This document shows, piece after piece, positions 7,720 through 21,729 of a stretch of 64,000 bases of DNA (position 1 is the stretch's first letter; every line of letters starts with the position of its first letter). The notes under the pieces are model-generated. The model was not told where the DNA came from, made no database searches, and worked only from the letters and a program-made list of their open reading frames with translations. The stretch comes from Sphingopyxis macrogoltabida (lineage in GTDB: Bacteria; Pseudomonadota; Alphaproteobacteria; Sphingomonadales; Sphingomonadaceae): assembly GCF_001307295.1 (NCBI RefSeq), contig NZ_CP012700.1, positions 871,001 through 935,000 of the forward strand. Reading direction: 5' to 3'. The translations under genes and the position numbers were made by a program.

Positions 7720-8958
7720 TCAGAACCCGATCGGGCTGAAGCTTGTCTCGGCGCGGAGGCCGATGACCAAGGCATCGGGGATCGTCGGGTCGGCCGACGG
7801 ACGCCGGATATAGTGGAGGCTCGGCTGGAGCGTCAGCCACGATGTCAGCGGCGCGCGATAGGTCGCCTCGATCGCGATTTCCGAGGCGCTGGCACCGGCC
7901 GCCGCGCGATAGCTGTCCGATGTGAAGGCTGCGGCGACGGCGAGGCCGAATTCATCTTCCTCGCGGCCGGGGATCCAGCCGGCGAACTTGATCCCGCCGC
8001 TGGCAAAGGCGTCGAACATGTTGAACCGGCCCTTTGCCGTGCCGACCCGTGCGAACAGATCGGCGCGGCGTTCGCCTTGCACGACGATCGGCATCTCGCC
8101 GCGCAAATAGGTGCCGCTATTGCCTGTCGCCGCGGCGCCGCCGTCGTTCGGCTCGAACGCCGCAGTATATTGCCAGTGCCCGAGCAGCAGCTTGCCGCCC
8201 TTCAGCGGCGCTTGCACCTCGCCGACCAGCAACGCGCCGTCGCCATTCCCGAGTTTGATCGCGGTCTGCCGTGGATGGTCGGGATCGCCGGGTACGCCGT
8301 CGAGCACCGCCGCGCGCACCGCCCAGCCTTCGGCCGGCTCTACCTGGAAGCGGGCGGCGAGCGAGGTGCTCGGAAAGATCGACGGGCCATTGCGGCCGCT
8401 TTGCGCGAAGTCGGTGCCGATCCCGTGCGGGCTGCTGACGAACAGCCCGGCGGCATCGAGCGAGTCGAACTCCGAATTGAGGTCGTAGAGGCCCGCCTTC
8501 ACCGAGATGCGCTCGCCGATCTTCTGGTCGATCCATGCCTCGTAGAGGCGGAACGCCGAAACCCCGGTCTCGATATTGCTGATCGCCTGCGTGTCGCCGG
8601 CGAAAGCGCTGATCGACCGGCCGTTGTTGTAGAGGCCGTAGAGATGGAGCTGGGCGCCCGTCCAGCCGGCGAGCTTTTCCAGATCGGCCTCGAACACGAT
8701 GTCGAGATTGTCCAGATAGCGCGCGCCCTTGCGCACGCCGCCCGACACATTGCCCATCACTTCGCCGGTGTAGGTCAGTTGCAGCAGGACCGGGCCTTGA
8801 TCCTCGTCGATCTCGCCACCGGCATGGGTATGGCCGTGCGGTGCGTGGCCGGCGGCATGAGGGGCAATGGCATCGGCTGCCGGCGCGCTGGAAAGCGCAA
8901 GTGCGAGCGCCAGCATCAGAAGCTGACCATGAAGGCGAGGCGGATACGGTCGAGCCAC
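7720..8958 (-). CDS. OprB-type carbohydrate-selective porin
   Basis: A 412-residue outer-membrane protein resembling OprB-family porins: a His-rich mature N-terminus (HAAGHAPHGHTHAGG), then LDIVFEADLEKLAGWTGAQLHLYG and QAWIDQK-like segments, and a C-terminal strand ending in phenylalanine. The family passes sugars or small polar solutes by diffusion. Two starts are possible. GTG 8958 gives a signal peptide with an Arg-containing n-region. ATG 8916 forms a TGATG overlap with the upstream porin stop but leaves an uncharged leader. Neither has a strong ribosome site, so translation is probably coupled to the upstream porin. It is the last gene of the PepSY-porin-porin operon. Confidence 0.82.
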   Translation of the reverse strand: MARPYPPRLHGQLLMLALALALSSAPAADAIAPHAAGHAPHGHTHAGGEIDEDQGPVLLQLTYTGEVMGNVSGGVRKGARYLDNLDIVFEADLEKLAGWTGAQLHLYGLYNNGRSISAFAGDTQAISNIETGVSAFRLYEAWIDQKIGERISVKAGLYDLNSEFDSLDAAGLFVSSPHGIGTDFAQSGRNGPSIFPSTSLAARFQVEPAEGWAVRAAVLDGVPGDPDHPRQTAIKLGNGDGALLVGEVQAPLKGGKLLLGHWQYTAAFEPNDGGAAATGNSGTYLRGEMPIVVQGERRADLFARVGTAKGRFNMFDAFASGGIKFAGWIPGREEDEFGLAVAAAFTSDSYRAAAGASASEIAIEATYRAPLTSWLTLQPSLHYIRRPSADPTIPDALVIGLRAETSFSPIGF

Positions 8959-10193
8959 TCGCGCGGCGGCAGTGCGCCGGCATAGGCCGGGTCGAGCGGC
9001 CGGTAATGATACCAGAGCAGATCGAGCTGCAGATGCGGCGCCGGGACATAGCCGATGCCGACCCCGTGCAGCTTGTAGTTGGTCGACAGGTCGATATTGT
9101 CGTGGCTGAACGCGGCGAGCACCGAGTCCACCTGAACTTCCGAATAATTATAGGCGATGCGCCAGTCGCCGGGTTTGGCAGTCCGTCCCGCAGCCAGTTC
9201 GAGGTTGAATGCGGTATCGCCGGCGACGGCTGCCCCCAGATTCTTCACATAATCGGCAGTGAACGCCAGCGGCCAGCGTTCGGACAGGCCGGACCAGCCG
9301 AGCGTGCCGATGCCCTCGATCAGGTGAAAGTCGGAGAGGTAGCGGCCCCCCGAAATGAGGTTGCCGCGGAAATCCCCGGCATCGGCGCCCGCCACCGAGC
9401 CGAGGCGGTAGTGATAATAGCTGCCGGTCAGCCCGGCCTTCAGCGTCGCGCCGAGCGGCGCCGAGAGCGCGAGCTGACCGCCGAGCATGTCGCTGTCGCG
9501 TGCCACTGCGGCTTCATCGATGACGAACCAGATGCCACGGGCGTCGACACGCGCGCCGCCGAGGCCGGCGCCATAGCTGGCCCCGACGCCCTGCGGCGAG
9601 ACGTCGCCATCCCACAGCATGTCGGTGCGCTGGAATATCTGCGGGAATTTCCCGGCATAGGCGGTGAGGCCGCCATTGGTGTAGCGCACCCACGCCTGAT
9701 CGAGCGCGACCGCAAAGTCGTCGACGAAATTGCCCAGCGTCACGTCGGTCGAATTGGGGTCGTCGGGATCGCCCGTCGCGATCTGCGTGCCGACCGCGAA
9801 ATGGTCGTCGATCTTGTACGTGGCACGGAGGCGGGCGCGGACGGCGCTGCGCGACCGGTCGCGCGCAGTACCGTAATTCCACTCCTGCCGCACGCGCATG
9901 TCGCCGCTGACGTCGAGGCCCGCGATGCCGAACTCGTCGCGCGCCGCCGGTGCGGCGGTTGCGGCCGGCGTGCTCGCCGCGACGGGTGGCGGCGCGACCG
10001 GCGGTGCTGGGGCGGTCGTGCCGACCTGCTCGAGCATCTGCGACTGCCGCGCGACGAGGCTTTCAAGCTGCTCGATCCGCTGCTGCTGCTCGGCGAGCTT
10101 GCGTTCGAGCGCGCCGATCCGGTCCTCCTGCGCCTGGGCCGCAGGCGCGATCGACAGCGCCGTCGCGGCGAGGAGGAGAGCGCGGATTTTCAT
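8916..10193 (-). CDS. Putative trimeric porin with N-terminal coiled coil
   Basis: A 425-residue protein from ATG 10193, with AAGGAAGAA upstream; longer in-frame starts would run into the PepSY gene. A signal peptide (MKIRALLLAATALSIAPAAQAQ) is followed by a coiled coil (DRIGALERKLAEQQQRIEQLE, about residues 24-55), a Pro/Ala-rich linker, and a barrel beginning DVSGDMRVRQEWNYG and ending in FMVSF. This is the layout of the Porin_5 putative porins, whose coiled coil helps trimer formation or anchoring to peptidoglycan. It starts 2 bp after the PepSY gene stop and overlaps the OprB-like gene, so the three are one operon. The solute is unknown. Confidence 0.85.
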   Translation of the reverse strand: MKIRALLLAATALSIAPAAQAQEDRIGALERKLAEQQQRIEQLESLVARQSQMLEQVGTTAPAPPVAPPPVAASTPAATAAPAARDEFGIAGLDVSGDMRVRQEWNYGTARDRSRSAVRARLRATYKIDDHFAVGTQIATGDPDDPNSTDVTLGNFVDDFAVALDQAWVRYTNGGLTAYAGKFPQIFQRTDMLWDGDVSPQGVGASYGAGLGGARVDARGIWFVIDEAAVARDSDMLGGQLALSAPLGATLKAGLTGSYYHYRLGSVAGADAGDFRGNLISGGRYLSDFHLIEGIGTLGWSGLSERWPLAFTADYVKNLGAAVAGDTAFNLELAAGRTAKPGDWRIAYNYSEVQVDSVLAAFSHDNIDLSTNYKLHGVGIGYVPAPHLQLDLLWYHYRPLDPAYAGALPPREWLDRIRLAFMVSF

Positions 10194-10195
10194 GA

Positions 10196-11287
10196 TCAAT
10201 TCTTCCTTGTCGCCGGCTTGCGGCGCTTGAACCAAAGCAGCAGGCCGGCGACGATCATCGTCACCAGCCACAGGCCGATCCCGACCGACAGCAGCCGTCC
10301 GATCAGGCCGCCCGCTTCGCCGGTATGGATGGGGAACAATGCGCTCATGAAAGCGCGGGCGGGTTCGGCTTCGGCGATTGGAAATACCCCCCGGACGGCG
10401 CCGTCATTGGCATCGACGAGGACGATGCTGCCGCCATAGGCGCGGCGGATTTCGCCGGGCGCGAGAACGCGTATGCGATAGGTGGCGTCGTCGGCTTCGG
10501 GCCAGGCGACCTGGGTCAGGCTGCTGCCGGGGATCGCCCCGAGCGCCGCGCCGGCCGCCGCCGCGAAGCCGACCCGGGCGCCGGTCTGCGGATTGGCGGC
10601 CATGGCGACGCTTTCGGCGCCGAGCGCGGTGCCGACACCGTCTTCGAATTTCAGCATCGTGCCGGTCGCGGCGATGACGAGCGCCGGAACCACCGCCCAC
10701 AGGCCGACCGCGCGGTGCCAGGAATAGAGCCGCGCCGCCGCCGGACCGCGCCGCGCCGGGATGAGCGCGGTGCGCCACGTCCCGCGCCGCGGCCATGCGG
10801 CGACGAGGCCGAGGACGAGGTTGGAGCAAAGCAGCAGGCCGCTGATCGACACGATCCAGCTCCCCCATGCGCCGAGCAGGTCGTGATGGAAACCGACGAG
10901 GAAGTCGATCAGCGTCGTTTCGTCCGGCTTCGGCATGTCGATCACCGTCCCGTCGCCGGCAATGCGGACCTTGCCGCCATCGCCGCCCGCTTCGTCGAAA
11001 TAGACGGTGTAGCGGTCGGGCAATCCGGCGGTTGTCCAGATCGTCGTCACCGTCCTGTCGCCGCCGGCAGGTGCGATCGCATCGATGCGGCGCTCGATCG
11101 CGGCGAGATCGGTCTTGCGGTGGATATCGCTCAGCGCCGCGTCGCCGATCTCCCAGTGAAAGACGATCAGGATGCCGGTGAGCGCCTGGAGCAGCCAGAA
11201 GAGGGCGGCGCCAAGACTGAGCCATCGGTGCGCCGTCAATATCTGCCGGCGAAGCGGCGGTCGCGTCGTGCGGGATGTTTCGGTCAT
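10196..11287 (-). CDS. PepSY-associated transmembrane protein (possible iron reductase)
   Basis: A 363-residue inner-membrane protein. Four membrane segments are visible near residues 10-35, 135-155, 190-210 and 320-345. A large periplasmic domain between helices 1 and 2 contains PepSY-like strands. Conserved histidines lie next to the helices (TAHRWLS, VFHW, GFHHDLLG, YSWHRAVGLW), as in the PepSY_TM family. Members are often encoded beside TonB-dependent siderophore receptors and some have been proposed to reduce ferric iron. The ATG at 11287 is chosen over an upstream frame extension that would run through the regulatory motif. It heads an operon with two porins and lies just downstream of the receptor gene on the same strand, separated from it by a terminator and its own control region. 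Confidence 0.85.
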   Translation of the reverse strand: MTETSRTTRPPLRRQILTAHRWLSLGAALFWLLQALTGILIVFHWEIGDAALSDIHRKTDLAAIERRIDAIAPAGGDRTVTTIWTTAGLPDRYTVYFDEAGGDGGKVRIAGDGTVIDMPKPDETTLIDFLVGFHHDLLGAWGSWIVSISGLLLCSNLVLGLVAAWPRRGTWRTALIPARRGPAAARLYSWHRAVGLWAVVPALVIAATGTMLKFEDGVGTALGAESVAMAANPQTGARVGFAAAAGAALGAIPGSSLTQVAWPEADDATYRIRVLAPGEIRRAYGGSIVLVDANDGAVRGVFPIAEAEPARAFMSALFPIHTGEAGGLIGRLLSVGIGLWLVTMIVAGLLLWFKRRKPATRKN

Positions 11288-11311: not shown

Positions 11312-11353
11312 GGTCCAAAAAACATCCACTTTTCGCTATGTCGATGGGTCCAA
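11312..11353 (-). promoter_or_regulatory. Shared two-part motif A, before the PepSY-porin operon
   Basis: On the reverse strand TTGGACC (11353-11347) is followed after 18 bp by TGGATGTTTT and then TTGGACC again (11318-11312). The same arrangement occurs upstream of the receptor gene (13696-13747) and of the hypothetical/amidohydrolase operon (15972-16013), and in weaker form on both sides of the MocR gene. Spaced direct repeats are the known binding mode of MocR regulators, so this is a candidate MocR site. It lies 25 bp upstream of the PepSY start codon. Confidence 0.6.
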
Positions 11354-11367
11354 GCATCTATGCTTGG
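11350..11367. repeat. 18-bp palindrome at the edge of motif A
   Basis: CCAAGCAT and ATGCTTGG flank CT, overlapping the first TTGGACC half-site of motif A. It could be a second operator or part of the same protein-binding region. It is too close to the terminator at 11381-11406 to be explained by that structure. Confidence 0.45.
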
Positions 11368-11380
11368 CCCGGCAAAGAAC

Positions 11381-11406
11381 AAGCCCGGCTGTTGCCGGCC
11401 GGGCTT
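11381..11406 (-). terminator. Rho-independent terminator of the siderophore-type receptor gene
   Basis: Read on the reverse strand, a 9-bp stem AAGCCCGGC / GCCGGGCTT with an 8-nt loop is followed by GTTCTTT. It lies 22 bp after the receptor stop codon and separates that transcript from the PepSY operon. Confidence 0.7.
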
Positions 11407-11427
11407 TGGAACATCGATGATGTCCGA

Positions 11428-13602
11428 TCAGAATTCGATCGAGGCCGATGCCTTGAAGGTGCGCGGGCCGCCCTGCAGCAGCCGGGTGCCGAAGGCGCTG
11501 AAGACGTTATAGGCCGAAGCCCAGTAGCGCTTGTCGGCGACGTTATCGACGTTGAAGCGCAGCGTCAGCGGGGTTTCGCCGACCAGCGCGACATAGCGCG
11601 CGCCGAGATCGAAGCGGGTCCAGCTATCGAGTTCGAGCGTGTTCGTCGCATTCGCTGCCTGCTTGCCGGTGTAGACCACGCGGCCGACCAGCGTCAGTTC
11701 GGGCAGGAACGGCAGGTCCCATTCGACGTTGGCGTTGGCGAGCACTTCGGGCACGCCGATCGCGTCATTGCCCTGGTTGATGCCGCCTTCGGTCCGGCGC
11801 AGCTTGGCATCGTTGATGGTCAGGCCGGTGATGATGCGCAGGCCGTCGACCGGCTCGCCGTCGAGCGTGAGCTCGATGCCGCGGTTCCGCTGCACGCCGT
11901 AATTGCCATAGATCAGCGTGACCGGGTCGACGAAGCTGTTCGGCTTGTCGATCCGGAACAGCGCGAGACCCGCGTTGAAGCGGCCGAAGTTCAGCTTGCC
12001 GCCGACTTCATATTGCGTCGACTTGACAGGCGGCAGCACGGCGCCGCCGTTGACGACCGGGAGAAAGCCGCCCTGGCCGTCGTCGATCGTCGGCGGCGCG
12101 GTGGAGCCTGCCAGCAGACCCTCGATCCGGTTGCCGTAGATCGACAGACCCTCGACGGGCTTGATGACGAGGCCGACGACCGGGGTTATCGCCGATTCCT
12201 TGTAGCCGCCGGTGCGCGAGCCGTCGGCGTAGGAATAGGATGTCGTCTTGATCTCCTGCAGGCGCAGGCCGCCGGTGATCAGGATGCGGTCGTCCCACAG
12301 CCCGAGCGTGTCCGAGAAAAAGGCGCTCGACACGCGGGTGCGGCCGATCGGGAACACATTGTCGAGGTCGCCGCCGACGAACTGGTTGGGGATGGGCCGC
12401 GGTGCGACGACGGGATCGTAGAGGTTGGTGGCATAGCCGATGAAATCGAAATCATAGGCATTGCGATTGACCTGCCAGCTTACCGCGACGCCGGCGTTGA
12501 CCTCGTGGCTCATGCCGCCGCCTTCCAGCTTGATGCGGATGCCGGCGGTGGCCGATTCATTATTGTCCTCGCGCGGGACGTAGGAGCCGGCGCCGGTGGC
12601 GGCACCGGTCACTGCGTCGAGCACGGTGATGCTGGCGGTCGTCTGATCCTCGCGCCCGTCGCGGGCGCCGACCTTGGCATAGACCATCGCTTCTTCGGAC
12701 ACGTCATATTCGAGACTGAAGGTGCCGAAGAAATCCTTGGTCAGAATCTGGCTCCACGGCTGCGAATAGTTGGTGTCGGCATCGGGCACGCGCGGGATGA
12801 CCGCGCCGATACCCACCTGGCCGCGCCAATAGGACTGGTTGAGCCGCTGGTAGTTGAGGTTGAGCGAGCTGCGCAGCGGGCCATTGTTGTAATCGAGCGT
12901 GGCGCCGAGGACATAGCTCGAGTGGAATTCGTCGTTGATCGCGATATCGCCGCGGCGCGCCGATCCGTTGACGCGGAGGCCCCATTCGCCGTTGGCGCCA
13001 AAGCGGCGGGCAACGTCGACCGCACCCGAGAAATGCGCGGCGGATGTGTAGCCGAGCGTTGCGCGGGTCATGTCGCGCTCGGCCATTTTGGGGATCAGGT
13101 TGACGCTGCCGCCGATACCGCTGCCGCCGGGCGCGGCGCCGTTCAGAAAGGCGCTCGCGCCGTTGATGACCTGGACCGACGAGAAAAGTTCGGGCGCGAC
13201 GAGCTGGCGCGGCGTGATGCCGTAGAGGCCGTCGAAGCCGACGTCGCTTGCATCCAGTTCGAAACCGCGGATGACGAAGACTTCGCCGGCGATGCCGAAG
13301 CCCAGCGTGGTGCGGACCGTCGGGTCGTTTTCCAGCACTTCGCCCAACGTGTCGGGCTGCTGGTTGAGGATCAGCGCCTCGTTGTAACTGCGGATGTTGA
13401 AGGGGATATCTTCGGCGGCCTTGGTGCCGAAGACACCGACATTGCCGCCGCCGGTCACCTTGGTCTGGTTGTTGCGCTGCGCGGTGACGACGATGCTTTC
13501 GCTGTCCGCCGCATCCTGCGCGAAAGCCGGCCCGGCAACCGCCAGCGTAGCGCCCAGCGTCAGGAGGCTGGTCCCCCGAACGATGCCCCGAATTGCAACC
13601 AT
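11428..13602 (-). CDS. TonB-dependent receptor, siderophore-receptor type
   Basis: A 724-residue outer-membrane receptor from ATG 13602, with GGGGGA eight bases before it. After a signal peptide (cleaved after AVAGPAFAQ) comes the TonB box ESIVVTAQR, then a plug domain (EDIPFNIRSYN, QPDTLGEVLENDPTVR, FVIRGFE), and a barrel ending in ASIEF. The IRGFE and QVINGASAFLNGAAPGGSGI segments are characteristic of the siderophore-receptor branch. It would import a chelate or small peptide-like ligand. It lies between PepSY/porin genes and amidohydrolases, and a shared MocR-type motif precedes it (13696-13747), suggesting co-regulation with the catabolic genes. Whether the ligand is iron-bound or an organic nutrient cannot be decided from sequence. 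Confidence 0.9.
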   Translation of the reverse strand: MVAIRGIVRGTSLLTLGATLAVAGPAFAQDAADSESIVVTAQRNNQTKVTGGGNVGVFGTKAAEDIPFNIRSYNEALILNQQPDTLGEVLENDPTVRTTLGFGIAGEVFVIRGFELDASDVGFDGLYGITPRQLVAPELFSSVQVINGASAFLNGAAPGGSGIGGSVNLIPKMAERDMTRATLGYTSAAHFSGAVDVARRFGANGEWGLRVNGSARRGDIAINDEFHSSYVLGATLDYNNGPLRSSLNLNYQRLNQSYWRGQVGIGAVIPRVPDADTNYSQPWSQILTKDFFGTFSLEYDVSEEAMVYAKVGARDGREDQTTASITVLDAVTGAATGAGSYVPREDNNESATAGIRIKLEGGGMSHEVNAGVAVSWQVNRNAYDFDFIGYATNLYDPVVAPRPIPNQFVGGDLDNVFPIGRTRVSSAFFSDTLGLWDDRILITGGLRLQEIKTTSYSYADGSRTGGYKESAITPVVGLVIKPVEGLSIYGNRIEGLLAGSTAPPTIDDGQGGFLPVVNGGAVLPPVKSTQYEVGGKLNFGRFNAGLALFRIDKPNSFVDPVTLIYGNYGVQRNRGIELTLDGEPVDGLRIITGLTINDAKLRRTEGGINQGNDAIGVPEVLANANVEWDLPFLPELTLVGRVVYTGKQAANATNTLELDSWTRFDLGARYVALVGETPLTLRFNVDNVADKRYWASAYNVFSAFGTRLLQGGPRTFKASASIEF

Positions 13603-13695
13603 GATATTTCCCCCGAATGGTGTCCGAATTCCCGTCCGATCGAGCGAGGCGGTTGCCAAGCCCATAATCAGAACCGTAACATGTTTGACCTGGTT

Positions 13696-13747
13696 GGGCC
13701 GTAAAACATCCAATTTGCGTAGCGACTGGGGACCAAGGCGGGTCCAG
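13696..13747 (-). promoter_or_regulatory. Shared two-part motif B, before the TonB receptor
   Basis: Reverse strand: CTGGACC (13747-13741), TTGGTCC (13736-13730), then 17 bp, then TGGATGTTTT and CGGCCC (13698 onward). It matches motifs A and C in sequence and spacing and has one additional half-site. It ends about 95 bp before the receptor start codon. I infer a MocR-family operator or promoter element. Confidence 0.6.
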
Positions 13748-13766
13748 TTTTCGGTTTGCGACCGGA

Positions 13767-15431
13767 CTATCCGAACCGGACAATCCCGCCGACGACCGTT
13801 TTCAATGCCTTGGTCTTCACAAGTAAATGCGAATCGATAGCAAATAGATCGCTATCCCAGACCACAAAGTCGGCGAGAAAGCCAGCCGCGATCAGGCCGA
13901 GCTTCTTTTCGTTGAACCCGGCGAAGGCGCCTTCCTGTGTGTAGCAGTGCATCGCCTGCGCGAGAGTGACCCGCTGTTCGGGGTGCCAGCCTTGCGGATT
14001 CTGGCCGTCGAGCGTTTCGCGATTGACCGCGGCGTCGAGCCCGGTGAGCGGATCGATCGGCGCGACCGGCCAGTCAGAGCCCATGCAGACATGCGCGCCC
14101 GAGCCAACGAGCGATCCGTAGGCAAAGCTGGTTTTCAGCCGTTCCTCGCCGATGCGTCGCACCGCCCAGCGGCCGTCGTCGATCGCATGATAGGGCTGCA
14201 CCGACGCGATGATGCCCTGTTCCCTGAAACGGCCGATCGCATGCGGTTTCATATGCTGCACATGTTCGATGCGGAAACGACGGTCGCGCGGGCCATTGGC
14301 CTTGGCCACCGCCGCCATCGTGTCGAGCACGATATCGTTCGCTTCGTCGCCGATCGCGTGCGCCGTCACCTGCAGCCCGGCCTTGTCGGCGCCTTCGATC
14401 CAGCGGCGGAGATCGGCGGGGTCGGTGACGACGATGCCGCGCGTCGTCGGATCGTCGCTATAGGGTTCGTAGAAGCGCGCCGTTCGCGATCCCAGCGAAC
14501 CGTCGAACACCACCTTGCACGCCCCCCATTGCACCCAGTCGTCGCCGCGCCCCTGTTCCGCGATGAGCGCGACCTGCGCCTCCCAGTCTTTGAGCGGCAG
14601 ATAATGGCGGAAGCGCAGCCCCGTCTCGCCGAGCGCGCGCAGCCGCCGGGTGGAATCGAAGCTGATCGTTTCGAGTTCGGTCGGATGGACCTGCGTCACG
14701 CCCTTGCTCAGCGCAAGTTCGATACCCTTGCGCGTCGCGGCGTCGATCTGCGCTTCGGAAGGTGCGCCGATCGCGCGTACGACCAGATCCTTCGCGGCGT
14801 CCTTGACGATGCCGGTCGGTTCGCCCTTGGCGTCGCGTTCGATCACGCCGCCGGGGACGTTGGGGGTGTTGCGGTCGATTCCGGCCAGTTTCAGCGCAAG
14901 CGAATTGAGCAGCAGCATGTGAAGGTCGTAACGGATGACCGCGACGGGTGTGTCGGGGGTGACGGCGTCGATCCAGTCCTTGTGCGGCATCTCGCCGCAC
15001 CAGCGGTCCTGATCCCAGTTGCCGCCCTCCAGCCACTGGCCCTTGGGCAGCGCTTTCGCCGCCGCGGCGATGCGGGCGACGAATTCCTGCGGATTGGCGG
15101 CGTCGCGTAGCGAAGGCTGCGACAGCATCGTCGACGCGGTCACGAAATGGACGTGCGGGTCGATAAAGCCCGGTGTGACGAATGCGCCGGCAAGGTCGAC
15201 GATTTGCGTGCGCTTGCCGGTCCGCGCGCGCACCGCGTCGGCGCCGATCGCGGCGATCCGGTCGCCGATGATGCCGATCGCATCGGTGCGCGCCGTGGGG
15301 CCGGCCCCCGTCCATACTGCCGCGTTGATATAGGCGGCGTCGAGGTCGCCCTCGGCGTGGGCGAAGGCGCGCGTGGCGGCCGCCGCAGCGGTGCCGCCGG
15401 CGAGGGCGAGGAGCGTGCGGCGGCCGAGCAT
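13767..15431 (-). CDS. YtcJ-like metal-dependent amidohydrolase, exported
   Basis: A 554-residue protein beginning at ATG 15431, inside a TGATG overlap with the upstream stop. This start gives an export signal with a twin Arg (MLGRRTLLALAGG) ending near AFAHA. The amidohydrolase-3 fold is clear: the metal-binding H93-V-H95 in FIDPHVHF, HAIGDEANDIV with its ligand His, RIEHVQHM, and the late SDWPVAP motif with the catalytic Asp, then AGFLADFVVWD. Family members hydrolyse amide or ester bonds in diverse small substrates; YtcJ-type substrates are mostly unknown. With the hypothetical protein upstream it forms an operon controlled by motif C. Its likely role is processing an imported compound in the periplasm. 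Confidence 0.88.
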   Translation of the reverse strand: MLGRRTLLALAGGTAAAAATRAFAHAEGDLDAAYINAAVWTGAGPTARTDAIGIIGDRIAAIGADAVRARTGKRTQIVDLAGAFVTPGFIDPHVHFVTASTMLSQPSLRDAANPQEFVARIAAAAKALPKGQWLEGGNWDQDRWCGEMPHKDWIDAVTPDTPVAVIRYDLHMLLLNSLALKLAGIDRNTPNVPGGVIERDAKGEPTGIVKDAAKDLVVRAIGAPSEAQIDAATRKGIELALSKGVTQVHPTELETISFDSTRRLRALGETGLRFRHYLPLKDWEAQVALIAEQGRGDDWVQWGACKVVFDGSLGSRTARFYEPYSDDPTTRGIVVTDPADLRRWIEGADKAGLQVTAHAIGDEANDIVLDTMAAVAKANGPRDRRFRIEHVQHMKPHAIGRFREQGIIASVQPYHAIDDGRWAVRRIGEERLKTSFAYGSLVGSGAHVCMGSDWPVAPIDPLTGLDAAVNRETLDGQNPQGWHPEQRVTLAQAMHCYTQEGAFAGFNEKKLGLIAAGFLADFVVWDSDLFAIDSHLLVKTKALKTVVGGIVRFG

Positions 15432-15928
15432 CACTTGCCCGCCGGCTTGCGCGGCGGATTCGCGGCGCGCCATGTGTCGAGCCTTGCGAGCCAGACGGCG
15501 GCCGACAGGGGCCCATAGGTCTTTGAATCGGTGTGTTCGGCAACAAGCGCACGGATGTTGACGAAATAGGCGGGGCCGCTCGGCAGGCCGAGTTCCTTGC
15601 TTTTCCGCTCCATCGCCGCCGCCTGTTCGGGGGTCGGTTCGACGCCGGTCACCGGCTTGAACAGGATGACGTCGAAGTCGGCGCCATTTTCATGAAAGAA
15701 GAGCTGCGTCGGCGGGAAGCCGCCGGCGGCGGCGACTTCGTCGGCGAGCGCGAGTTCGCGGATGAACTGTTCCTGCTTGCCCGGCGCCAGCTTGAAGATT
15801 TCGAACCACGCTTCGGGCCAGGGCGCGTCGGCCGCGGCCGGGGTCGCGGCGGCGGCGGGCGTCTGTTGCGCGCCGGCGGAGAACGGCAGGGCCGCTGCGG
15901 CGATCGTCAAGGCGAATGCGTATTTCAT
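15431..15928 (-). CDS. Secreted protein of unknown function, paired with an amidohydrolase
   Basis: A 165-residue protein from ATG 15928, with GGAGGGAG upstream. Residues 1-22 form a signal peptide (cleaved after SAGAQ). The mature part has the segments WFEIFKLAPGKQEQFIREL and LPSGPAYFVNIRALVAEHTD. They resemble the small secreted family often annotated as hypothetical in sphingomonads, and the fold may be a ferredoxin-like alpha/beta domain. No catalytic motif is seen. Its stop overlaps the amidohydrolase start (TGATG), so the two are made together. It is the first gene after motif C. A role as a partner or binding protein for the exported amidohydrolase is a guess from context. Confidence 0.8.
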   Translation of the reverse strand: MKYAFALTIAAAALPFSAGAQQTPAAAATPAAADAPWPEAWFEIFKLAPGKQEQFIRELALADEVAAAGGFPPTQLFFHENGADFDVILFKPVTGVEPTPEQAAAMERKSKELGLPSGPAYFVNIRALVAEHTDSKTYGPLSAAVWLARLDTWRAANPPRKPAGK

Positions 15929-15971
15929 GATATCTCCCTCCTGAACCGGCCGCACGATCCGCTTCCGGGGT

Positions 15972-16013
15972 GGATCGCAAAACATCCAATAAGCGGGAGA
16001 GGGAGGGGGCCAG
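15972..16013 (-). promoter_or_regulatory. Shared two-part motif C, before the amidohydrolase operon
   Basis: Reverse strand: CTGGCCC (16013-16007), 18 bp, TGGATGTTTT (15988-15979), then GATCC (15976-15972). Sequence and spacing match motifs A and B. It lies in the 94-bp gap between the MocR gene's 3' end and the hypothetical gene start, so that operon has its own promoter here. Confidence 0.6.
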
Positions 16014-16022
16014 TCGGAAGAA

Positions 16023-17483
16023 CTATCCCGCCGCCTCGCGAAGCGCCGACAGGGCGGTGCGCGCTTCGTGCGCATTGAGACTGGCGAAACCGATGCGCAG
16101 GCCGCGCGGCGCATCGTCGGTCGTCATGAAGGACCGCGACGAGGCAAAGCGAAGCCCCATCGCCGCGGCGCGTACTTCCATCTTGTCGAGGTCGGTGTTG
16201 ACCTTGAGCCAGAAGGCAAGGCCGCCGTCGGGCAGGCGATATTCGGCGATGTCGCCCAGCGTGCGGTCGATTTCGGCCGCGAAATTGGCGCGCCTTTTCG
16301 CATAGATCTGGAGCACTTTGCGGCCGTGGCGGCGGAGTTCGCCGCTTTCGATCAACTCGGCGGCGGCATCCTCGGTCAGCGCATTGCCCATGCCGTCGGT
16401 CAGCGACACGCGGTGCGCAATGGCCTCGACGACGGCGGGCGGCGCAGCGACATAGCCGATGCGCAGCGCGGGCAGGAGGAGCTTCGACATCGAACCGACG
16501 TAGAGGACATGGCCGGGACCATAGGCCGCGAGCGGCAGCAATGGCTGCGATTCGAAGTGGAACTCGTGATCATAATCATCCTCGATAATCGCAAAGCCGA
16601 ACTGGCGGGCGAGGTCGAGAAGACGCAGCCGGCGTTCGGGGCGCAGCGACACCGTCGTCGGGAACTGGTGGTGCGGCGTCACGAAGACCGCGCGCACCGC
16701 GTTGCGGCGGCAGGCATGCTCGACCGCGTCGATGTCGATGCCGTCCTCGTCGAGCCCCACCGGCACGATATTGGCGCCGAGCGCGCGGAATGCGGCGACC
16801 GCGGGTTCGTAGGTGAGTTTCTCGACAATCACCGAATCGCCGCGCCCGAGCAGGACCTGCGCCGCGAGGAATATGCCGTTCTGGCTGCCGCGCGTGATGC
16901 AGATATTTTCCGCGCTGACCGGCACGCCGCGCTGGCTCCGCAGCATCGCGGCGATCGCTTCGCGCAGCGCGGGCGATCCGCGCGGATCGCGATACTGGAA
17001 GCCATTGTCGCGCGACGCGCGGAGCGCCGCCAGCCGGTAGGCGCGCGCCAGCAGCTCGACGGGAAAGAGGCGGCCGTCCGGAGCGCCCTCGTCGACCTTG
17101 AGCCCCGGCCCGCCCGGTACCGCGAGCGGCCGTTCGGGCGGCATGGCAAAGCGATAGTCGATGACGGCGCTGCTCATCGTCGCTTCGGCCTCGCCATGGT
17201 GGCGGATGACCGGATCGGGAAGCGAGGCGGCAACCATCGTGCCGCGGGTGCCCGCCGAATCGAGCCACCCCTGCGCGATCAGATCCTCATAGGCGATCAC
17301 CACCGTCTTGCGATTGACCCCCAGCGTCTGCGCCAGTTCGCGGCTGCTCGGCAGATAGGTGCCCGATGCCAGCCGGCCGCGTTCGATGTCGCGGATCACC
17401 GCCTGGATGATCTGCATATAGATGGGGACGTCGCGCGACGGATCGATCCGTTCGCCCAGGCTCACTTGTAAGGGACGCAGCAT
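16023..17483 (-). CDS. MocR-family PLP-dependent transcriptional regulator
   Basis: A 486-residue fusion of a GntR winged-helix DNA-binding domain and a fold-type I aminotransferase. Residues 20-85 show the helix-turn-helix (YMQIIQAVIRDIERGRL, YLPSSRELAQTLGVNRKTVVIAYEDL). The aminotransferase domain carries the PLP motif SMSKLLLPALRIGY with Lys334, the IIEDDYDHEFHF Asp-Tyr motif and a late Arg in RGLRIGFAS. MocR proteins sense vitamin B6 or an amino-group ligand by forming a PLP adduct (PdxR, GabR, TauR are examples) and often control adjacent genes. Here related sites lie before five neighbouring transcripts, including its own (17484-17526) and the divergent PaiB-amidohydrolase operon. The effector is probably an amino compound linked to the local catabolic genes. 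Confidence 0.93.
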   Translation of the reverse strand: MLRPLQVSLGERIDPSRDVPIYMQIIQAVIRDIERGRLASGTYLPSSRELAQTLGVNRKTVVIAYEDLIAQGWLDSAGTRGTMVAASLPDPVIRHHGEAEATMSSAVIDYRFAMPPERPLAVPGGPGLKVDEGAPDGRLFPVELLARAYRLAALRASRDNGFQYRDPRGSPALREAIAAMLRSQRGVPVSAENICITRGSQNGIFLAAQVLLGRGDSVIVEKLTYEPAVAAFRALGANIVPVGLDEDGIDIDAVEHACRRNAVRAVFVTPHHQFPTTVSLRPERRLRLLDLARQFGFAIIEDDYDHEFHFESQPLLPLAAYGPGHVLYVGSMSKLLLPALRIGYVAAPPAVVEAIAHRVSLTDGMGNALTEDAAAELIESGELRRHGRKVLQIYAKRRANFAAEIDRTLGDIAEYRLPDGGLAFWLKVNTDLDKMEVRAAAMGLRFASSRSFMTTDDAPRGLRIGFASLNAHEARTALSALREAAG

Positions 17484-17526
17484 TGGACCTGTCTCACCGG
17501 AAAATTTTCGTGAACGATGGGGCCAA
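17484..17526 (-). promoter_or_regulatory. Degenerate shared motif E, at the MocR gene start
   Basis: Reverse strand: TTGGCCCCATCG (from 17526), about 15 bp later the 10-bp palindrome GAAAATTTTC (17509-17500), and GGTCCAA touching the start codon (17490-17484). The first part closely matches motif A (TTGGACCCATCG). The TGGATGTTTT part is not conserved. An autoregulatory site is plausible. Confidence 0.45.
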
Positions 17527-17561
17527 GTCTATCGCGATATTTTCCGGGCTGCAACCGTCAC

Positions 17562-17599
17562 TGGTCCCCCGCGCTTTTCGTTTTTGGTGCTTGCCGGAG
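17562..17599 (+). promoter_or_regulatory. Degenerate shared motif D, before the PaiB-amidohydrolase operon
   Basis: Forward strand: CTGGTCC (17561-17567), 17 bp, then TGGTGCTTG and a GTGCC shortly after. The spacing equals that of motif B, while the second half differs from TGGATGTTTT. It lies about 105 bp upstream of the PaiB-like start. It is a weaker candidate for control of this operon by the divergent MocR gene. Confidence 0.4.
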
Positions 17600-17694: not shown

Positions 17695-18297
17695 ATGGTG
17701 GGGCTCTTCGACACATTCGACAATGCCGACGTTCGCGCGCTGGTGGAGCAATATCCGCTCGCCTGGGTGTGCGGCGGGCCGGCAGGCGCGGTCGAGGCAA
17801 GCCTGCTGCCGCTGGTCGGTGTCTTCGATGCGGACGGCCGGCTCGTCGAACTGGTCGGTCACCTGATGCGCTCCAATCCGCTTTTGACGGCGCTGGAGGC
17901 CGACCCGCGCGCGACGATCCTGTTCAAGGGACCCGACGCCTATGTCAGCCCCGAACATGCCGGGCTCAAAAATTGGGGTCCGACCTGGAATTATGCGCAG
18001 CTCAGGATCGGCGCCGAGGTCCGCTTCGATATCGCGCTCACCGAATGGTCGCTCGAACTGCTCGTCGAGGCGATGGAAGCGGAGCGTGCCGAGCCGTGGA
18101 ACGTCGAAGAACTCGGCAAAAGATATCAGGCGATGCTCGGGCATATCATCGGCTTCCGAGCCTCGGTGACCTCGCTGTCGGGCAAGTTCAAGCTGGGGCA
18201 GGACGAAAAGCCGGAAACATTCGCGTCGATCGTGGCGACGCTGCCCGACGCACCGACGACGGCATGGATGCGGCGGTTCAACAAGGGGCGGGAATGA
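17695..18297 (+). CDS. PaiB-like FMN-binding family protein
   Basis: A 200-residue protein with the split-barrel fold of the PaiB family (FMN-binding negative transcriptional regulator). Visible signatures are LPLVGVFDADGRLVELVGHLMRSNP, the AYVSPEHAG segment, PTWNYAQLRIGAEV, and the C-terminal IIGFRASVTSLSGKFKLGQD, which corresponds to the conserved I-x-G-x-K-LSQ region. The founding Bacillus member was described as a repressor of protease genes, but most relatives are probably flavin-dependent enzymes. The ATG at 17695 follows AGGGGG. It heads a tightly coupled operon with two amidohydrolases and ProC (ATGA overlap with the next gene) and is divergent from the MocR gene. Its own role here is uncertain. 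Confidence 0.85.
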   Translation: MVGLFDTFDNADVRALVEQYPLAWVCGGPAGAVEASLLPLVGVFDADGRLVELVGHLMRSNPLLTALEADPRATILFKGPDAYVSPEHAGLKNWGPTWNYAQLRIGAEVRFDIALTEWSLELLVEAMEAERAEPWNVEELGKRYQAMLGHIIGFRASVTSLSGKFKLGQDEKPETFASIVATLPDAPTTAWMRRFNKGRE

Positions 18298-19682
18298 TGA
18301 GGATGCGGCAGCTCGGTCTCTCGGTCATGGTGGGCGCATTGCTGTTCGCAGCGCCGGCAGATGCGCAGCGATCGGCGCCGCTCCCCTGGCAGGAAGATCC
18401 GTATCCGAGCCGCTATCAGGCCCCGGTGGCCAGCGACATGCTGCTCCGCGGCGCTACCATCCTCGATGGCGCCGGGGGGCGCATCGACGGCGGCGACGTC
18501 CTTGTCCGCGGCGGCAAGGTCGCGGCGGTCGGCAAGCAATTGGCGAACCCCGGCGTGCCCGAGGTCGATGCCACCGGCCGCTGGATCACCCCCGGGGTGA
18601 TCGACGTGCACAGCCACGATGGAACCTATGTCCTGCCGCTGACCGAAATCGACAGCGAAGCCTCCGACGTCGCCGAAGTCGCGACACCGAACAGCGCCGA
18701 CACGTGGATCGAGACGGCGGTGAATGCGCAGGACATGGCGTTCGACCGGGCGTTGGCGAACGGAGTGACGACGCTCCAGATCCTCCCCGGATCGACGCCG
18801 ATCTTCGCGGGCCATTCGGTCGTCGTAAAGCCGGTCCGCGCGCCGACCGTGTGGGGCATGAAGGCGGCCGGCGGAATCCAGGGCTTCAAGATGGCGTGCG
18901 GCGAGAATCCGAAGAGCTGGGGCGCCGACGACGACAATGAAGGGCCGACGAGCCGGCAGGGCGTCATCGCCTATATGCGGCAGCAGTTCGCCGACGCGCA
19001 GCGCTACAAGCGCGCGGTCGAGCAGGCGCGCGCCGGAGCGGGGGCGATGCCGCCGCGCGATTTCAAGCTCGAGACGCTGGCCGGCATCCTTGCGGGCGAC
19101 GTCCGCGTCAATCTTCATTGCTATCGCGCCGGCGATATCGCGGCGTCGCTGGGTGTCGCGAAGGAATTCGGCTTTCGCATCGGTGCGATCCATCATGCGA
19201 CCGAAGCGTACAAGATCCCCGGCCTGCTGCGCGAGGCGGGCACCTGCGCGGCGGTATGGGCCGACTGGTGGGGGTTCAAGGTCGAGGCGCAGGACGCGAT
19301 CCGTGCCGAGGCGCCGTTGCTCGAACAGGCGGGGGTGTGCGTGATGATGCATTCGGACTCGCCCGCCGACGGCCAGCGGCTCAACATTGCCGCAGCAAAG
19401 GCGGCCGCTGCCGGCCGCCGCATCGGCGTCGACATCCCGCCCGAACGGATGATCAAATGGACGACAGGTAACCCCGCGAAGCTGCTCGGGCTCGACAAGC
19501 AGGTCGGCACCATCGCGCCGGGATTGCAGGCCGATCTGGTCCTGTGGTCGGGCGACCCGTTCAGCATCTACACGCACGCCGACCTTGTCCTGATCGGCGG
19601 CGCGGTGGCGTGGGATCGCGCGAAGCCGCCGGCGGGGCCGGTTTCGGACTTCGAACTCGGGCGTGGGGGAGCACGGCCGTGA
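18294..19682 (+). CDS. Exported COG1228-type amidohydrolase with intact metal site
   Basis: A 462-residue protein. The ATG at 18294 overlaps the PaiB stop (ATGA); a second ATG follows at 18297. A signal peptide ends near PADAQ (residue 25). Metal ligands are visible: H106-S-H108 in GVIDVHSHDG, the LHCYR and AIHHATE histidines, and MHSDSPAD with the catalytic Asp. The C-terminal LGLDKQVGTIAPGLQADLVLWSGDP is typical of imidazolonepropionase-like enzymes. Some members of this group are known prolidases acting on Xaa-Pro dipeptides. The pyrroline-5-carboxylate reductase gene two positions downstream would fit a proline-related substrate. It overlaps the next amidohydrolase gene by 4 bp and probably works with it. 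Confidence 0.88.
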   Translation: MMRMRQLGLSVMVGALLFAAPADAQRSAPLPWQEDPYPSRYQAPVASDMLLRGATILDGAGGRIDGGDVLVRGGKVAAVGKQLANPGVPEVDATGRWITPGVIDVHSHDGTYVLPLTEIDSEASDVAEVATPNSADTWIETAVNAQDMAFDRALANGVTTLQILPGSTPIFAGHSVVVKPVRAPTVWGMKAAGGIQGFKMACGENPKSWGADDDNEGPTSRQGVIAYMRQQFADAQRYKRAVEQARAGAGAMPPRDFKLETLAGILAGDVRVNLHCYRAGDIAASLGVAKEFGFRIGAIHHATEAYKIPGLLREAGTCAAVWADWWGFKVEAQDAIRAEAPLLEQAGVCVMMHSDSPADGQRLNIAAAKAAAAGRRIGVDIPPERMIKWTTGNPAKLLGLDKQVGTIAPGLQADLVLWSGDPFSIYTHADLVLIGGAVAWDRAKPPAGPVSDFELGRGGARP

Positions 19683-20953
19683 AGATGTTCGTCAGCCTGA
19701 TTGCGCTCACCGTCGCCATGCCCGCCGCGGCGCAGACGCTCGCCGTCACCCATGCCGAGGCGTGGACGATGGAAGGCGACGCGCCGGTGAAGGACGCGAC
19801 GATCGTCATCGAGAACGGCCGTATCGTATCGGTCGCGGCGGGCGGTGCGGCGCCGGCAGACGCGCGCGTCATCGATGCGCACGGCAAGCCGGTGACCCCC
19901 GGCCTCGTCAACGGCGCGACCCAGATCGGCCTCGTCGAGGTCGCGGGCTCATCCGATACCGTCGACACGAGTTCGGCCGACGATCGCAATCCGGGCTATG
20001 ACGTCAGCCGCGCGCTCAACGGCAATTCGACGCTGGTCAGCCTCGCGCGCGCCGACGGTCTGACGCGCGCGCTCGTCTATCCGTCGCCGTCGCGGCGCGC
20101 GCCGTTCAACGGCGAACCCGCCCTCGCGCGGCTTCGCGACGGCGTCGATATCCTCGATGTCGCCAACGTCGGGGTCTATACGGTGATCGGTGGCGGCGCA
20201 TGGGAGCGGATCGGGTCGCGCGCCGCGCAGTGGGACAGTCTTCGCAACGCTCTCACCGAGGCGAAACGCAAAGCCGATGGTCCCCCCGCCGCTGGGGGTA
20301 AGAAGGATCGCAAGCGTCCATCGCCGCCGCCGCGCGGCGGGCCCGGCGGACGCCATGGCGGCGAGGAGCTGCTTGCCGATGTCCTGCGCGGCGAGGTGCC
20401 GCTGGCGATCCAGACGCATCGCGAGTCCGACATCCGTCAGGCGGCGGCGCTTGCCGGGGATTTCGGTATCCGCGTCATTATCGTCGGCGGGGCAGAGGCA
20501 TGGCGCGTCGCCGACCAGCTCGCCGCCGCCAAGGTGGCGGTGATCGTCGACCCGCAGGTCAACCTGCCGTTCAATTTCGACCAGCTCGGCGCGCGGCAGG
20601 ATAATGCGGCGCTGCTCGCCAAAGCCGGTGTCATGGTTGCGGTGGGGCAGGCTGGCGGGGTGATTCACGCCAACTACAATGCCGGCATGGGGCTTCGCGA
20701 GGGGGCGGGGATCGCGGTCGCCAACGGCCTGCCTTATGTGGAGGCGCTGAAGGCCGTCACCGTCAATCCGCTCACCATATGGGGCTGCGGCGGCGGCAGG
20801 CTCACGCCGGGCGCCGACGCCGATCTCGTGATCTGGGACGGCGACCCGCTCGAGCCCTCGACCAACGCGCGCTCGGTGATCGTCGAAGGCCGCGAGACGG
20901 CGATCCGGTCGCGGCAGGACCAGCTCGCCGAGCGGTATCGGGAGGTTCGCTGA
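19679..20953 (+). CDS. Amidohydrolase-like protein lacking the HxH metal motif
   Basis: A 424-residue protein starting at GTG 19679 in a GTGA overlap, with GGGGGAG eight bases upstream. A signal peptide ends near PAAAQ (residue 19). The fold is recognisable from GRIVSVAAGG, KPVTPGLVNGATQIGL and the C-terminal LTPGADADLVIWDGDPLEPS. At residues 80-82, where relatives have His-x-His, it has A-T-Q, although THRESD (ligand His region) remains. A basic Pro/Gly-rich insert lies near residues 195-230. It may be inactive, may bind metal differently, or may form a complex with the intact paralogue encoded upstream. Tandem pairs of this kind in one operon suggest a hetero-oligomer. Confidence 0.83.
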   Translation: MKMFVSLIALTVAMPAAAQTLAVTHAEAWTMEGDAPVKDATIVIENGRIVSVAAGGAAPADARVIDAHGKPVTPGLVNGATQIGLVEVAGSSDTVDTSSADDRNPGYDVSRALNGNSTLVSLARADGLTRALVYPSPSRRAPFNGEPALARLRDGVDILDVANVGVYTVIGGGAWERIGSRAAQWDSLRNALTEAKRKADGPPAAGGKKDRKRPSPPPRGGPGGRHGGEELLADVLRGEVPLAIQTHRESDIRQAAALAGDFGIRVIIVGGAEAWRVADQLAAAKVAVIVDPQVNLPFNFDQLGARQDNAALLAKAGVMVAVGQAGGVIHANYNAGMGLREGAGIAVANGLPYVEALKAVTVNPLTIWGCGGGRLTPGADADLVIWDGDPLEPSTNARSVIVEGRETAIRSRQDQLAERYREVR

Positions 20954-21729
20954 TGACGGTTCTCCTTATCGGTTGCGGACGCATGGGCGGCGCGATGGCG
21001 CGCGGCTGGGTCGGCAGTCGCCGCGTGCTCGTCCACGATCCGCTCGCTGCCGACCTGCCCGACGGAGCCGAGCGCGTCGCATCGCTCGCCGATATCGTGA
21101 TCGACGGACCGCTGTCGGTCGTTCTTGCGATCAAGCCGCAGACGTTCGATGCGGTCGCCGAGGCGCTGCGGCCGCTCGCCGAGCGCGGCGCGCTTTTTCT
21201 CTCGATCATGGCGGGGATCACACTTCAGCGACTGGAAACGGCGCTCGGCACCGGCCGCGTCGTGCGGGCGATGCCGAACACGCCGGCCGCGATTGGCCGG
21301 GGAATCAGCGCGGTGGTACCGGGCCCCGATTTGCGGGTTGAAGATCAGGGGGCGGTCGATAGCCTGCTCGCGCCTGCGGGCGCGGTCGTCTGGCTCGACG
21401 AGGAAGCGCTTATCGATGCCGTAACCGCCGTGTCGGGCAGCGGTCCCGCCTATTTCTTCCGTTTCACTGAAGCGCTCGCGGCCGCCGGAGCAGCGGCGGG
21501 ATTGCCGGCGCCGCTCGCGATGGAACTCGCACGCGCCACCTTCACCGGCGCGGCGGCGCTGGCCGATGCCGATCCGTCGCCGCTGGCGGGGCTCCGCGAA
21601 CAGGTGACCAGCCCCGGCGGGACAACCGCGGCCGGACTGGCGCAGATGGATGCGAAGGAGGCGATCGATCGGCTGCTGCGTGCGGTCGTCGACGCGGCGG
21701 CAACGCGGTCGCGCGAACTTGCGGGTTGA
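20953..21729 (+). CDS. proC: Pyrroline-5-carboxylate reductase
   Basis: A 258-residue cytoplasmic enzyme that reduces pyrroline-5-carboxylate to proline with NAD(P)H. The Rossmann motif LLIGCGRMGGAMARGW is at the N-terminus. The family signatures MPNTPAAIGRGISAV and the C-terminal SGSGPAYFFRFTEAL and LREQVTSPGGTTAAGL are intact. The start ATG overlaps the preceding stop (TGATG), so it is translationally coupled to the amidohydrolase pair. A ProC inside an exported amidohydrolase operon is unusual for the housekeeping enzyme. It may be a catabolic or dedicated copy, or may act on a related cyclic imine. Whether a second proC exists elsewhere cannot be seen here. Confidence 0.93.
   Translation: MTVLLIGCGRMGGAMARGWVGSRRVLVHDPLAADLPDGAERVASLADIVIDGPLSVVLAIKPQTFDAVAEALRPLAERGALFLSIMAGITLQRLETALGTGRVVRAMPNTPAAIGRGISAVVPGPDLRVEDQGAVDSLLAPAGAVVWLDEEALIDAVTAVSGSGPAYFFRFTEALAAAGAAAGLPAPLAMELARATFTGAAALADADPSPLAGLREQVTSPGGTTAAGLAQMDAKEAIDRLLRAVVDAAATRSRELAG

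Follow-up and report, generated by a model that had tools for sequence, protein, structure and literature searches.

A predicted self-regulated MocR regulon beside outer-membrane uptake and amidohydrolase genes in Sphingopyxis macrogoltabida

Introduction

Around a MocR-type regulator gene of Sphingopyxis macrogoltabida, variants of one composite motif precede five transcripts, and the locus raises the question of whether these copies are the operators of that regulator. The locus lies in a 64,000-nucleotide stretch (assembly GCF_001307295.1, contig NZ_CP012700.1, positions 871,001 to 935,000 of the forward strand), which was analysed computationally as a whole and is referred to here as the window. 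The MocR protein encoded amid the five copies very probably uses them as its operators, so that the locus would constitute a self-regulated regulon of five transcripts. Of 86 MocR groups in a 2016 survey, only 38 could be given a role (PMC5320631, seen in part), and for this sparsely assigned family the locus supplies a specific operator together with its regulator and a set of targets. If the reading is true, sensing that depends on pyridoxal phosphate (PLP) is tied to TonB-dependent uptake in sphingomonads. To our knowledge, most sphingomonad TonB receptors have no known substrate, and the motif makes the question of the ligand directly testable.

The composite motif in the host genome

The regulator gene and the three full copies of the motif are located as follows.

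16023..17483, minus strand: MocR-type regulator of 486 residues, with a GntR winged helix-turn-helix, an aminotransferase-like domain and a PLP lysine, K334, in the sequence SMSK.
11312..11353, minus strand: putative operator A, TTGGACC-N18-TGGATGTTTT-NN-GGACC, 24 bases 5' of the PepSY start at 11287.
13695..13736, minus strand: putative operator B, TTGGTCC-N17-TGGATGTTTT-NN-GGCCC, 92 bases 5' of the TonB receptor start.
15971..16013, minus strand: putative operator C, CTGGCCC-N18-TGGATGTTTT-NN-GATCC, 42 bases 5' of the LP165-amidohydrolase operon.

All three copies share one layout on the minus strand: YTGGNCC (box 1), 17-18 bases, TGGATGTTTT (box 2), two bases and GRNCC (box 3). The spacing of boxes 2 and 3 (TGGATGTTTT-NN-GRNCC) is identical in each. 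An additional CTGGACC is present just upstream of B (to about 13747), within the span that a first-pass annotation of the window had given to this site.

The genome (5,098,553 bases, 5.10 Mb, in 6 contigs) was searched with the strict two-box pattern YTGGNCC-N15..20-TGGATGTTTT, using the same pattern reversed as the control. Three matches were obtained genome-wide, exactly A, B and C, with 0 in the control; the first-pass annotation's description of a recurring two-part motif at these sites, in this orientation, was thereby confirmed for all three genome matches. The same three matches remained genome-wide with the pattern shortened by its initial base and its two final T's (TGGNCC-N17..18-TGGATGTT), and the box 2 and 3 pattern TGGATGTTTTNNGRNCC matched A, B and C only, at 0 mismatches, in the whole genome. 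With up to 2 mismatches TGGATGTTTTNNGRNCC gave 24 genome matches versus 16 in the control, and weaker copies elsewhere in the genome are therefore near background. No further sites were accepted elsewhere in this genome, none having been found with the exact or slightly relaxed pattern. Box 2 alone was at chance (TTGGATGTTTT with up to 2 mismatches, 4 window matches versus 4.16 expected), so the signal resides in the composite. This chance level of box 2 speaks for regarding the copies as chance or as duplicated functionless sequence, an explanation that is nonetheless extremely improbable, as the motif is confined to the locus, tied to MocR and placed before orthologous genes far above controls.

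Sites between PaiB and MocR

Two weaker copies lie in the gap between the divergent PaiB and MocR genes.

17484..17526, minus strand: putative operator E, with boxes 1 and 3 at the 43-base outer span seen in C and a degenerate box 2.
17561..17593, plus strand: putative operator D, a CTGGTCC-N17-TTGGTGCTTG variant, 101 bases 5' of PaiB.

Site E covers the MocR ribosome-binding region, and its GGTCC stops one base before the MocR ATG (17483). Recurrence of both patterns was counted in the 38 of 80 related loci (see below) that have divergent PaiB and MocR genes and a MocR match from residue 1. The D pattern was found in 22 of the 38 (0.01 per set with shuffled gaps) and the E pattern in 16 (0.06 per set). 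An alignment of 17 chosen relatives and the window showed the PaiB-MocR gap to be conserved precisely at D and E. The suggestion that weaker copies flank MocR was thus borne out by recurrence in relatives. No claim is made for D-type copies elsewhere in the genome, where the pattern gave 3 matches versus 2 in the control. In several Sphingobium loci PaiB is downstream of MocR with an ordinary motif carrying TGGATGTTTC, and PaiB is therefore a predicted target independently of D.

Conservation in relatives

To obtain related loci, named genomes were scanned with the MocR protein and the best 80 of 566 loci were retained. Most come from Sphingopyxis, Sphingomonas, Novosphingobium and Sphingobium, the rest from other Alphaproteobacteria and a small number of further lineages; among these best 80 of 566, Sphingopyxis supplies the nearest named relatives. 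The strict motif was present in 37 copies at 24 of the 80 loci; 36 of the copies share the strand of MocR. The gap was 17 bases in 15 copies and 18 bases in 22, with an A-rich stretch preceding box 2. The general form YTGGNCC-N17..19-TGGNNGTTY gave 100 copies in 63 of the 80 loci, versus 1 for the reversed control and a mean of 1.1 (maximum 5) in 20 block shuffles. The third box, as NNGRNCC after TGGATGTTTT, was present in 23 of 39 cases in the 80 loci.

At least one TGGATGTT copy was found in 13/14 loci with MocR identity of at least 75%, in 18/23 at 65-75% and in 17/23 at 60-65%. Many loci without TGGATGTT carry a variant box 2 (YTGGAGG, YTGGCCG, YTGGCGG or YTGGACG) at a comparable place. 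Two Rhodopseudomonas loci (L102 and L103) have the boxes TTGGACC and YTGGACC, then at least GGTC, upstream of MocR. The distant MocR genes of these two loci are divergent from a ferredoxin-type oxidoreductase gene, with a formamidase-like gene near (by eye). Taken with L088, L092, L096, L100, L104 and L105, the distant MocR neighbourhoods show only a loose amino-acid theme.

Co-occurrence of motif and regulator

As the 80 loci were chosen by MocR, the free test of co-occurrence consists of the genus and family genome searches only. MocR was found at E <= 1e-140 in 16 of 80 genus genomes, at 78% identity or more in 15 and at 55% in one. The strict motif was found in 14 of the 80 genomes, all among the 15 with the close MocR, and in 0 of the 65 others. 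The fifteenth genome with a close MocR (G272) has two copies with the last T changed. Of the 33 genus matches, 32 are at most 5 kb away from the MocR gene. The stray strict match away from MocR (G309:C146:125520) was treated as chance, there being no credible gene behind it. In the family sample MocR was found in 11 of 249 genomes and the strict motif in 2, both with MocR; it was found in 0 of the 238 genomes without MocR. The other nine MocR-bearing family genomes have no strict motif, and in all nine MocR is at 56-69% identity, a range in which box 2 varies.

One locus pair on a single contig (L074 and L080) has, some 20 kb away from the first MocR, a second one of about 62% identity next to a PepSY gene; this is also found in G295. 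No motif copy was matched in L080. A further genome (G298) has a second, partial MocR on another contig.

These searches bear on the rival reading that an alternative sigma factor uses the motif as its promoter, or that a different regulator binds it, with MocR as a mere neighbour. The gap of 17-18 bases between boxes 1 and 2 does resemble promoter spacing. Between the end of the site and the start codon there are 24 bases at A and 42 at C, so both sites must overlie the core promoter or the start of transcription, as such an alternative would have it, and the full motif before MocR was found in 0 of 80 loci. The strict motif is, however, missing in 65/65 genus genomes that have no close MocR and in 238/238 sampled family genomes that have no MocR. 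The MocR start repeatedly carries boxes 1 and 3, in the two Rhodopseudomonas loci both of the boxes before MocR have the form YTGGACC, and YTGGNCC resembles the CTGGACYTAA box of the MocR regulator TauR (PMC5320631, seen in part). An unrelated factor acting beside a bystander MocR is therefore very unlikely.

Genes behind the motif

The genes of the proposed regulon in the window are the following.

15431..15928, minus strand: LP165, a protein of 165 residues, exported as judged by eye; before AH3 in close relatives.
13767..15431, minus strand: amidohydrolase AH3 (Amidohydro_3), HxH present, N-terminal signal-like segment by eye.
11428..13602, minus strand: TonB-dependent receptor of siderophore type; nearest solved structures FemA (1e-104) and BauA (1e-103).
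10196..11287, minus strand: PepSY_TM inner-membrane protein (PF03929).
8916..10196, minus strand: porin (Porin_5).
7720..8919, minus strand: porin (OprB).
17695..18297, plus strand: PaiB-like protein with the FMN-binding family FMN_bind_2.
18297..19682, plus strand: amidohydrolase AH_A, HxH present; kept in 18/18 relatives.
19676..20953, plus strand: AH_B, an amidohydrolase homologue in which HxH is missing.
20953..21729, plus strand: ProC-like pyrroline-5-carboxylate reductase.
21775..25002, plus strand: TolB_AH, a WD40-like propeller with an amidohydrolase; after the D operon, and preceded by a motif of its own at 5 loci elsewhere.

Orthologues were collected regardless of the motif, requiring at least 40% identity, a match starting at residue 60 or before and at least 150 upstream bases. 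The motif was counted on the same strand up to 330 bases upstream; the reversed control was 0 for every gene. Copies were found upstream of 19/24 TonB receptors, 15/17 LP165 genes, 12/20 PepSY genes, 13/60 PaiB genes, 9/45 AH3 genes and 2/36 TolB_AH genes, and of 1/11 OprB, 1/9 Porin5 and 1/19 alpha/beta hydrolase genes. Within the same distance the motif was found upstream of 0/18 AH_A, 0/16 AH_B and 0/13 ProC genes. In the window order AH3 follows LP165, and AH_A, AH_B and ProC follow PaiB, so these genes are expected to share the promoter of the gene before them.

Each of 106 motif copies was also assigned to the gene behind it, using as the reference set the window proteins, the A1 translated genes, one S9 peptidase and one aldehyde dehydrogenase; motifs starting GTGG before four TolB_AH genes were excluded. 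A reference-set gene starts at -60 to +320 bases from 97 of the copies, leaving 9 unassigned. Behind the 97 are 38 TonB receptors, 16 LP165, 13 PepSY, 13 PaiB and 9 AH3 genes, 2 S9 peptidases, 2 amino-acid permeases and 1 each of Porin5, OprB, alpha/beta hydrolase and TolB_AH. The uptake genes vary, with different TonB receptors, amino-acid permeases (behind the motif in L088, L104 and L105) and an S9 peptidase (L084). In L104 and L105 the permease with its motif form is divergent from MocR. Sixteen motif-bearing genes (15 in the 80 loci and 1 in L151) encode a TonB plug domain and have no BLASTX match to the window receptor. Where gene order has changed (L040, L048, L049, L063-L065, L093 and L099), the motif stays with its gene; the genes there diverge and are separated by one or two motifs.

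Absence of the motif before orthologous genes had been named in the first-pass annotation as grounds for abandoning its proposal of a local MocR regulon; the motif is instead carried by 19/24 receptors, 15/17 LP165 genes and 12/20 PepSY genes. The proposal is supported, since the motif recurs before orthologues despite changes in gene order and, in the free searches, only together with MocR.

A regulon for an iron chelator, or xenosiderophore, would also draw on these genes: the TonB receptor and a PepSY reductase would import the chelator and the amidohydrolases would break it down. Siderophore receptors pair with PepSY_TM reductases, and the operon adjoining the window receptor begins with PepSY_TM. 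The receptor itself is of siderophore type, not only by the FemA and BauA matches but also by the NCBIfam model TIGR01783 (301.9 bits, cut-off 223.5). The 16 motif-bearing TonB receptors without a BLASTX match to the window receptor count against a chelator, as do the permeases and the S9 peptidase behind the motif. We regard the chelator regulon as doubtful, with a real though minor share of the probability.

The amidohydrolases give little hold on a substrate. The nearest solved chains (3ooq, 3icj and 3igh) are described as amidohydrolase or uncharacterised only, so a substrate name taken from this homology was rejected, and the NCBIfam matches shown for the amidohydrolases are below their cut-offs and supply no substrate name. 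Membership of the amidohydrolase family suggests amide hydrolysis by the regulon. In AH_B, PGLVNGATQ replaces the metal-binding PGxxDxHxH, and HxH is also missing in 17/17 relatives; from this replacement AH_B is probably a non-catalytic partner. LP165 has no match to a Pfam, NCBIfam or PHROG family.

Two further observations concern the control regions. The promoter scan gave 2 sigma-70-like sites, none of them at A-E. A weak terminator-like hairpin lies between the receptor gene and operator A.

11381..11406, minus strand: terminator-like hairpin (8 such sites found versus 5.1 expected).

The MocR protein

The regulator has an N-terminal GntR winged helix-turn-helix (PF00392, residues 22-84, E 4.3e-14) and a C-terminal fold-type I aminotransferase-like domain (PF00155). 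Its SMSK aligns with the lysine motif of an aminotransferase, and the K334 position is kept in 80/80 loci. GabR chains match the protein at full length (E 8e-37, residues 20-477). In its own genome one other match to the protein was found at E <= 1e-20, with 32% identity.

The NCBIfam PdxR equivalog model is passed narrowly (335.5 bits versus a cut-off of 320). On this basis the regulator could be PdxR, with a regulon for vitamin B6 balance in which PaiB, carrying FMN_bind_2, is a putative FMN-dependent B6 oxidase (FMN, flavin mononucleotide). The regulons of PdxR, PdxW and PdxQ often include putative pyridoxamine-phosphate oxidases (PMC5320631, seen in part). No pdxS (PF01680) match was found in the genome, however, by a search that was positive in 10 of 14 control genomes. 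By Pfam the motif-bearing operons encode porins, the receptor, amidohydrolases and ProC, with no recognised B6 gene. The regulator was therefore not filed as PdxR, and assignment to PdxR is considered unlikely. Automatic PdxR annotation may mislead, as the model cut-off is passed here yet the genome is without pdxS.

Weighing of the regulon

Several results weigh against the copies being MocR operators, or limit how far the counts can be pressed. The genus and family counts include the own genome, and the genomes are related, so that the figures are counts and not independent trials. In the upstream alignments (receptor 11, PepSY 12 and LP165 13 sequences) the boxes are conserved and little else is until the ribosome-binding region, but the motif served to select and anchor the sequences, which builds in the conservation of boxes 1 and 2, though not that of box 3. 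The motif is not upstream of 5/24 receptors and 8/20 PepSY genes, and one locus with a MocR of 81% identity and the receptor present (L033) has no recognisable motif. With distance TGGATGTT fades, to 3/11 loci at 55-60% MocR identity and 2/9 below 55%.

The sites next to the regulator are the less distinctive ones. The full two-box motif was found within 330 bases before MocR in 0/80 loci, as is to be expected of E, which is without box 2; it is directly before PaiB in only 13/60, so that E and D rest on weaker patterns. The D pattern is not unique either, one of its 3 own-genome matches being D itself, against 2 in the control. No -35/-10 pair was found at A-E to indicate the sign of control.

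Confinement of the motif to the locus, its recurrence before orthologues, its co-occurrence with the regulator and the partial site at the regulator's own gene nevertheless make binding by MocR highly probable, and the copies are best taken as its operators. Autorepression of mocR through E is likely because E extends over the ribosome-binding region right up to the mocR start; our confidence in it was lowered slightly because the full motif precedes MocR in 0/80 loci.

Proposed mechanism

In the model we propose, a head-to-tail MocR dimer would read the direct boxes YTGGNCC and YTGGATG, 23-24 bp apart, and the inverted third box GGNCC would provide a further contact. MocR bound to E would shut off mocR; without box 2, binding there may be weaker or of a different mode. 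Targets would be held down without ligand and, on ligand, released or switched to activation. Repression relieved by ligand is slightly preferred to pure activation, which is possible.

A nitrogenous compound would cross the outer membrane via the TonB receptor and porins, with the PepSY protein taking part in the uptake route, and would be split in the periplasm by the exported amidohydrolases. The inducer is probably the free amine released by the hydrolases, which by analogy with GabR and EnuR would form an external aldimine with PLP on K334. For the substrate itself, a peptide, an amide or an amino-acid conjugate is given a modest preference.

More tentatively, and at somewhat less than even chances, the locus may represent a MocR branch that is centred on sphingomonads and reaches other Alphaproteobacteria. 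Such a branch would use the asymmetric operator YTGGNCC, YTGGATGTTT, GGNCC, sense through PLP an amine set free by hydrolysis outside the cytoplasm, control outer-membrane receptors, porins and periplasmic amidohydrolases, and so couple TonB uptake to the hydrolysis of one class of N-acyl or peptide nutrient, with the uptake part exchanged between lineages.

Comparison with known systems

In the literature searched, no description of this regulon was found; an unnamed entry in RegPrecise or in a supplement is possible. The main text of PMC5320631, as far as seen, makes no mention of sphingomonads, PaiB, TonB, amidohydrolases or the outer membrane; its supplements and RegPrecise lay outside the search.

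Among the described regulators, PdxR shares the NCBIfam model passed here, whereas this genome has no pdxS and the window operons hold no recognised B6 gene. GabR of Bacillus subtilis has full-length homology and the PLP lysine in common with the present regulator, while the targets differ; for GabR, an external aldimine with a ligand mimic has been described (PMC8739950, seen in part). EnuR, the MocR repressor of ectoine catabolism, responds to a hydrolase product, a free amine that reacts with PLP (same source). It is the model borrowed for the mechanism proposed here, although its target classes differ and its proposed operator, the short inverted repeat ATTGT-N6-ACAAT, is unlike the present one.

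TauR has alphaproteobacteria among its hosts and a CTGGACYTAA box in direct repeats, resembling YTGGNCC here (PMC5320631, seen in part). The CTGGACC part is shared, whereas YTAA is not in the consensus here and the second box here is TGGATGTTTT. TauR controls taurine use, and the window operons contain no taurine gene by Pfam, no search having been aimed at taurine genes.

Spaced direct repeats, cited in the first-pass annotation as a trait of MocR sites, are present here together with an inverted third box, and would be read by MocR. In the parts of the survey of Suvorova and Rodionov (2016) that were seen, two direct boxes and one inverted box (-> -> <-) form the commonest operator class of MocR regulons, the class to which the sites here belong, and MocR regulators are often autoregulated and adjoin their targets (PMC5320631). 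The comparison suggests that the type of regulatory circuit is already known and that the predicted regulon is a new member of it.

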